From Candidatus Saccharimonadota bacterium (GTDB taxonomy: Bacteria > Patescibacteriota > Saccharimonadia > Saccharimonadales > Saccharimonadaceae), in assembly GCA_017962365.1 (NCBI GenBank), contig JAGCVL010000001.1, positions 1 to 34,277 on the forward strand: 34,277 nt of DNA, read 5' to 3'. Position 1 is the first letter of the stretch; every line of letters starts with the position of its first letter. Positions 10,189 to 10,578 of this stretch are shown here, piece by piece. The position numbers and the translations under genes were made by a program. The notes under the pieces are model-generated. The model was not told the DNA's origin, made no database searches, and was given only the letters and a program-made list of their open reading frames with translations.

Positions 10189-10210
10189 CAAAAAACCGCA
10201 AAACTGCGGC
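10189..10210 (-). terminator. tmRNA terminator
   Basis: On the minus strand, CCGCA-GTTT-TGCGG is followed by TTTTTT. It begins about 15 nt after the encoded CCA of the tmRNA. Confidence 0.85.
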
Positions 10211-10223
10211 CTAAAATCAAAGT

Positions 10224-10578
10224 TGGTGGAGCTGCCGGATACTGCCTCCGGGTCCGAGTCATCACGTGGACGCGATTCTACATATATAGTTTTCTGTTTT
10301 GTCTTGGCGACTATTTTAAGCTGCAGAAAACGAAACTTAAAACCGCCATGGCTAATTGTCGAATCACAATGTGCCGTTTTTGTGACCGTATTTCCGTTGT
10401 ATGATAATCTATGTTCTACGGAACCTCAAACATTAGACCAGCCTAAATAATATTAAGCATATGCAGGCATGTATGCAACATGCGCTACTTTTGTGTTTTT
10501 AGCACTTATTTAATACTTACGGTATTCAATCGATATGCCTCACGCCTGTTAATGATCCGTCTAAGCTTTGTCAGCCCC
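10224..10578 (-). ncRNA. ssrA: tmRNA (trans-translation RNA), atypical T-loop
   Basis: tmRNA rescues stalled ribosomes and tags the unfinished peptide. On the minus strand the 5' end GGGGCTG (10578-10572) pairs with CAGCTCC (10234-10228), followed by ACCA, and contains the G3-U70 pair that marks alanine charging. TTAGACGG stands in place of the usual TTCGACGG near the 5' end. The tag frame begins about nucleotide 94 at GCG (10485) and encodes AHVAYMPAYA, then TAA. GGAC precedes the T-arm as in E. coli, but the T-arm is CCGGA-GGCAGTA-TCCGG, so the loop is GGCAGTA. A TGTGGTATAAT promoter and a terminator flank the 355-nt gene. Pseudoknots between tag and T-arm were not resolved by eye. Confidence 0.9.

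Follow-up and report, generated by a model that had tools for sequence, protein, structure and literature searches.

The 34,277-nucleotide stretch of a Candidatus Saccharimonadota genome that we analysed (the window) encodes a one-piece tmRNA that probably functions with an alternative form of elbow in its tRNA-like domain. Its T-loop has guanine at positions 54, 55 and 58, where the standard loop has U54, U55 and A58, and comparison with other tmRNAs suggests that exchanged base pairs probably still hold the bend of the tRNA-like domain.

The gene occupies positions 10578 to 10224 on the reverse strand (355 nt). A cmscan search matched it over the full length of the tmRNA family RF00023 (model positions 1-374) with 87.1 bits, against a gathering score of 47 bits, and in a search of the whole genome this ssrA was the sole RF00023 match over the cut-off; ARAGORN reported no tmRNA at 10578-10224. 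Its parts stand in the standard order and the CCA is encoded. The 5′ end reads GGGGCTG ACAA AG CTTA GAC GG and the 3′ end GGAC-CCGGA-GGCAGTA-TCCGG-CAGCTCC-ACCA, so written 5′ to 3′. The acceptor strand CAGCTCC (10228-10234) pairs with GGGGCTG (10572-10578) through seven pairs including G3.U70, which together with the CCA gives the alanine acceptor of the family. The T-arm (10235-10251) has five pairs, CCGGA with TCCGG, and encloses the loop GGCAGTA at 10240-10246 (in tRNA numbering G54 at 10246, G55 at 10245, C56 at 10244, A57 at 10243, G58 at 10242, U59 at 10241 and A60 at 10240). The loop is adjoined by an A53-U61 pair (10247/10239) where G-C is usual. A tag reading frame, GCT...TAA (10453-10503), encodes AKNTKVAHVAYMPAYA, ends in a stop and is conserved across the genus. 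Directly downstream of the gene is a terminator-like hairpin (10193-10212); the pattern scan that located it gave two such hairpins in the region compared with 0.3 in shuffled sequences. The genome also encodes the SmpB partner (G000:C4:76811-77182, E 2.9e-32). Among the RF00023 features tested only the canonical U54/U55/A58 T-loop, which is common though not universal in the family, is replaced. Judged from its sequence this copy looks functional, and we infer that it works normally with SmpB and the ribosome.

The first-pass annotation of this DNA had described the T-loop as GGCAGTA, with G at 54, 55 and 58 and with C56 and the purine at 57 kept, and had taken both tRNAs in the window to be normal. 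The sequence and the cmscan alignment agree on the former, and the two tRNAs have the T-loops TTCGAGC and TTCGAAC. Close relatives with a normal loop, which would have spoken against it, were sought within the genus and none was found, GGCAGTA being present in all 32 readable tmRNAs. The T-stem, by comparison, varies through paired changes (CCGGA/TCCGG in 25, GGGGA/TCCCC in 5, GCGGA/TCCGC in 1 and CGGGA/TCCCG in 1), and an invariant loop on a stem that changes in this way points to more than chance. An assembly or sequencing error, whose probability we regard as negligible, is refuted: 32 assemblies of the genus carry this loop, and so do other lineages of bacteria. The GGCAGTA loop is neither an error nor the result of damage or decay. 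The idea that the change is unique to this genome or genus was also rejected, as the same loop is found elsewhere in the order, in Alphaproteobacteria and in the family RF01849.

The change is confined to tmRNA, since T54, T55 and A58 are kept in all 30 tRNAs examined from the same genome. As the tmRNA of the window has no uridine at either 54 or 55, it can carry neither m5U54 nor Psi55, while the tRNAs keep both uridines and TruB is encoded in the genome; the suggestion that T-loop modification had been lost in tmRNA only is thus borne out. Three tRNAs of this genome have an exchanged elbow pair at 19-56, namely tRNA-Gly(GCC) with U19-A56 and tRNA-Ala(TGC) and tRNA-Ala(CGC) with A19-U56 (the three loci are L397, G000:C4:16762-16835; L403, G000:C4:111990-112063; and L409, G000:C3:46194-46266).

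To relate the two loops we compared 217 non-redundant tmRNAs in which both ends could be read. The D-loop dinucleotide before GAC was placed by choosing the register (a spacing of 4, then 5, then 3) according to 19-56 complementarity, and position 18 was then compared with position 55. A18 occurs with G55 in 165 tmRNAs and G18 with U55 in 44, so that 209 fall into one or other combination and 8 differ, among them L008 (A18 with U55) and L141, L142 and L368 (T18 with U55). With the spacing fixed at four, 195 of the 217 fit the same rule. The mutual information between 55 and 18 is 0.67 bits, whereas with other D-loop positions it is at most 0.19. At 54/58 the combinations are G.G in 122, U.A in 87, A.U in 3, C.A in 2 and C.C, U.C and U.U in one each. 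The 19/56 combination is G-C in 207, A-U in 8, and U-A and A-C in one each, counts that are partly forced by the register rule, and position 57 is a purine in every one of the 217. In the same sample 53-61 is G-C in 198, A-U in 16 and U-A in 3, the A-U pair occurring in the genus of the window and in g32 (L164, L165). For the tmRNA of the window, this covariation over the 217 tmRNAs, together with the independent tree pairs given below, would make A18 (10567) and G19 (10566) the partners of G55 and C56; both the pairings G54.G58 and A18.G55 and their geometry are what we infer from it.

The register itself is not equally clear everywhere. In the alphaproteobacterial D-loop, TAGGATCGAC, a shift of one base would give G18 G19, which counts against A18, while the D-loops of SAR11, TAGATTCGAC and TAGAATCGAC, favour the A18 register. 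A third type of elbow is seen elsewhere in the phylum (L141, L142, L368 and L369), with the T-loops TTCACTA, CTCACTA and TTCATTA; here a U precedes the D-loop G19, giving U18 with U55, and position 58 is C or U. There are also tmRNAs with A54 and U58, the reverse of U54.A58, with the loops AGCATTA and AGAATTA (L107/L361 in G158, L110 in G052 and L053 in G045), and in the G158 tmRNA position 56 is A as well.

The first-pass annotation had also drawn attention to the D-loop side and proposed that D- and T-loop changes might covary across relatives. The D-loop does read AAAGCTTAGACGG, and the replacement of TTCGAC by TTAGAC is real, with A at 10562 where most tmRNAs have C. Its coupling to the T-loop did not hold up: C, A and T before the D-loop GAC each occur with either T-loop state, with no association between them, and TTCGAC to TTAGAC was rejected as the partner of the T-loop change. 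The D-loop change that covaries is G18 to A, which, like the A53-U61 pair, the first-pass annotation had not mentioned.

The coupling was examined on an rplB phylogeny covering 77 genomes, using pairs that differ at position 55 and lie on independent, supported paths. Position 55 requires at least 15 changes on this tree. For 18/55 eight independent pairs changed in the same direction and none in the opposite one (p 0.008), and for 54/58 (G54 with G58) the count was seven to none (p 0.016), while the control pair 55/57 showed no association on the 77-genome tree. Both states are found within the single family f67, each with its matching partner (TTC with GG in G299; TGC with AG in G285 and G246). 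The coordinated exchange at 18/55 and 54/58, with 19-56 kept, supports the changed elbow that the first-pass annotation had offered as one possible meaning of the loop.

The loop types are unevenly distributed. In the class to which the window belongs loops with U54-G55 (TGCRAT) are common, and in its order GGCRGTN is found in most of the sampled genomes. Elsewhere in the class two genomes from a single genus (g89), outside the order, have GGCAGAA, and in the remainder of the phylum the loops seen were of UUC or UGC type, none of them with GG. On labels taken from record annotation and Rfam matches, GGCRGTA is present in nearly every sampled alphaproteobacterial tmRNA, and the gammaproteobacterial sample is UUC-type except for GGCRGTA in G333 and G480, both of which have permuted genes. 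These two cases reflect either a separate origin or transfer. Their loci are L224 and L291 (G333) and L374 (G480), L224 being labelled Sinobacteraceae and matching tmRNA_permuted and, weakly, alpha_tmRNA.

The GGCRGTA loop is already known from Alphaproteobacteria, as represented by alpha_tmRNA (RF01849), whose Rfam consensus reads CCCGGGGGCgGUACCCGG and uAGGAUCGACG. The tmRNA of the window shares with it the T-loop GGCRGUA and the AG before GAC in the D-loop. RF01849, however, is a permuted gene giving a two-piece RNA, whereas the tmRNA of the window is in one piece and in the standard order, and at 53-61 it has A-U where RF01849 has G-C; the resemblance is one of convergence, not membership. 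With the standard RF00023 tmRNA of E. coli it has in common the order of the parts, the G3.U70 acceptor, the GGAC lead, the tag frame and the encoded CCA, but the E. coli tmRNA has a TTCRANY T-loop with G18 G19 in place of GGCAGTA with A18 G19. According to a 2005 paper (PMC1168896), the mitochondrial tmRNA of Reclinomonas americana has G in place of both U341 and U342, and the tmRNA of Caulobacter has G for U342. Both are two-piece tmRNAs, unlike that of the window, though the G substitutions at U341/U342 are shared; the passages of the paper on these substitutions state no link to the D-loop. From the T-loop motif of tRNA the tmRNA of the window keeps the seven-nucleotide loop, the purine at 57 and a possible 19-56 pair. 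It differs in having G.G at 54.58, compared with the reverse-Hoogsteen U-A of tRNA, and its U-turn would be of GNR rather than UNR type.

The best reading is that an alternative elbow has evolved convergently, in which the contact between D-loop and T-loop and the 19-56 pair are kept. In the tRNA elbow residue 18 lies inserted between 57 and 58, in contact with Psi55, the 19-56 pair makes up the flat outer face and 54 is paired with 58 (PMC4810234). In tmRNA, interaction of the two loops is required for SmpB binding and function (PMC3968760). In the tmRNA of the window the T-loop would instead be closed by G.G in place of U.A at 54.58, and A18 would insert into it facing G55, in place of G18 facing Psi55. 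The turn would be made by G55-C56-A57 (GNR) in place of U55-C56-R57 (UNR). GNRA loops make their U-turn with a GNR sequence (PMC12550061), and as G55-C56-R57 conforms to this a turn would be possible without U55. The observed exchanges fall on the two inner contacts, with the Watson-Crick pair 19-56 on the outer face retained. The starting point of such an arrangement may have been U54/U55/A58 with G18, followed by U54/G55/A58 with A18 and finally by G54/G55/G58 with A18. Among the tmRNAs compared U54-G55-A58 with A18 is common and G54 without G55 was not seen, and it would therefore seem likely that 18/55 changed before 54/58. The two-piece tmRNAs of Proteobacteria arrived separately at the same end state.

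An elbow that is no longer needed in a reduced genome could also allow the T-loop to drift. The genome is small (625 kb), and SmpB has lost a central loop of 11 residues throughout the genus and the end of the tail in most of its members (the proteins end KKRDxERGRYA; G000:C4:76811-77182 is L147, and the others are L079-L086 and L148-L157), with a somewhat longer tail kept in G034 and G027. Similar losses are described for the SmpB of Carsonella, Hodgkinia and the hemoplasmas (PMC4131195). Drift does not explain a loop that is invariant within the genus on a covarying T-stem, partner positions that have changed in coordination, a conserved tag, or the same loop state in Alphaproteobacteria with large genomes. 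We consider relaxed constraint improbable. The missing SmpB segment lends itself to another explanation, in which a changed contact with SmpB, EF-Tu or the synthetase selected the new loop, as the central loop of SmpB contacts the tRNA-like domain (PMC4131195). A matching change in SmpB had been raised as a possibility in the first-pass annotation, and SmpB was considered as the covarying partner; it was rejected in that role as far as the loss of the central loop goes, which does not follow the T-loop state. GG-loop families elsewhere in the order (for example G048, G050 and G043) have an SmpB with the central loop and full tail, so that SmpB loss and T-loop state do not track each other, and the changes pair up inside the RNA. 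Selection by a protein contact accordingly appears unlikely.

The loop may on the other hand have changed to escape modification enzymes, or group I introns and integrases acting at the T-loop and 3′ end of tmRNA. Introns in tmRNA all lie in the T-loop and need a U ahead of the splice site (PMC11915505); GG loops are poorer in U, and with no U at 54 or 55 modification there is impossible. Escape alone leaves unexplained why the partners at 18 and 58 changed, and we regard it as very improbable. The alternative elbow, with its paired exchanges, is the reading that we prefer.

Few RNA tertiary structures are as conserved as the D-loop/T-loop elbow, and tmRNA is usually assumed to carry its modified bases too. 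We put forward tentatively, with a little less than even confidence, that the tmRNA elbow exists in two coupled states, G18.U55 (with U54.A58) and A18.G55 (with U54.A58 or G54.G58), between which it has switched some ten or more times across Bacteria while the tRNAs examined from the same cell retain U54/U55/A58, and that this rule is undescribed. A literature search did not find the GG loop in one-piece tmRNAs of this phylum or the D-loop pairing rules, though earlier papers on two-piece tmRNAs (Keiler 2000; Williams and colleagues) may hold prior notice. In practical terms, a standard gene finder (ARAGORN) missed this GG-loop tmRNA, and neither T54 nor Psi55 should be taken for granted in the tmRNA of Alphaproteobacteria or of the group to which the window belongs. 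A natural, repeatedly evolved replacement of the elbow with pairing rules would provide ready compensatory mutants with which to probe the demands that SmpB, EF-Tu and the ribosome make on the elbow. If the two-state rule is true, the tmRNA elbow would be without m5U54 and Psi55 in large parts of Bacteria.
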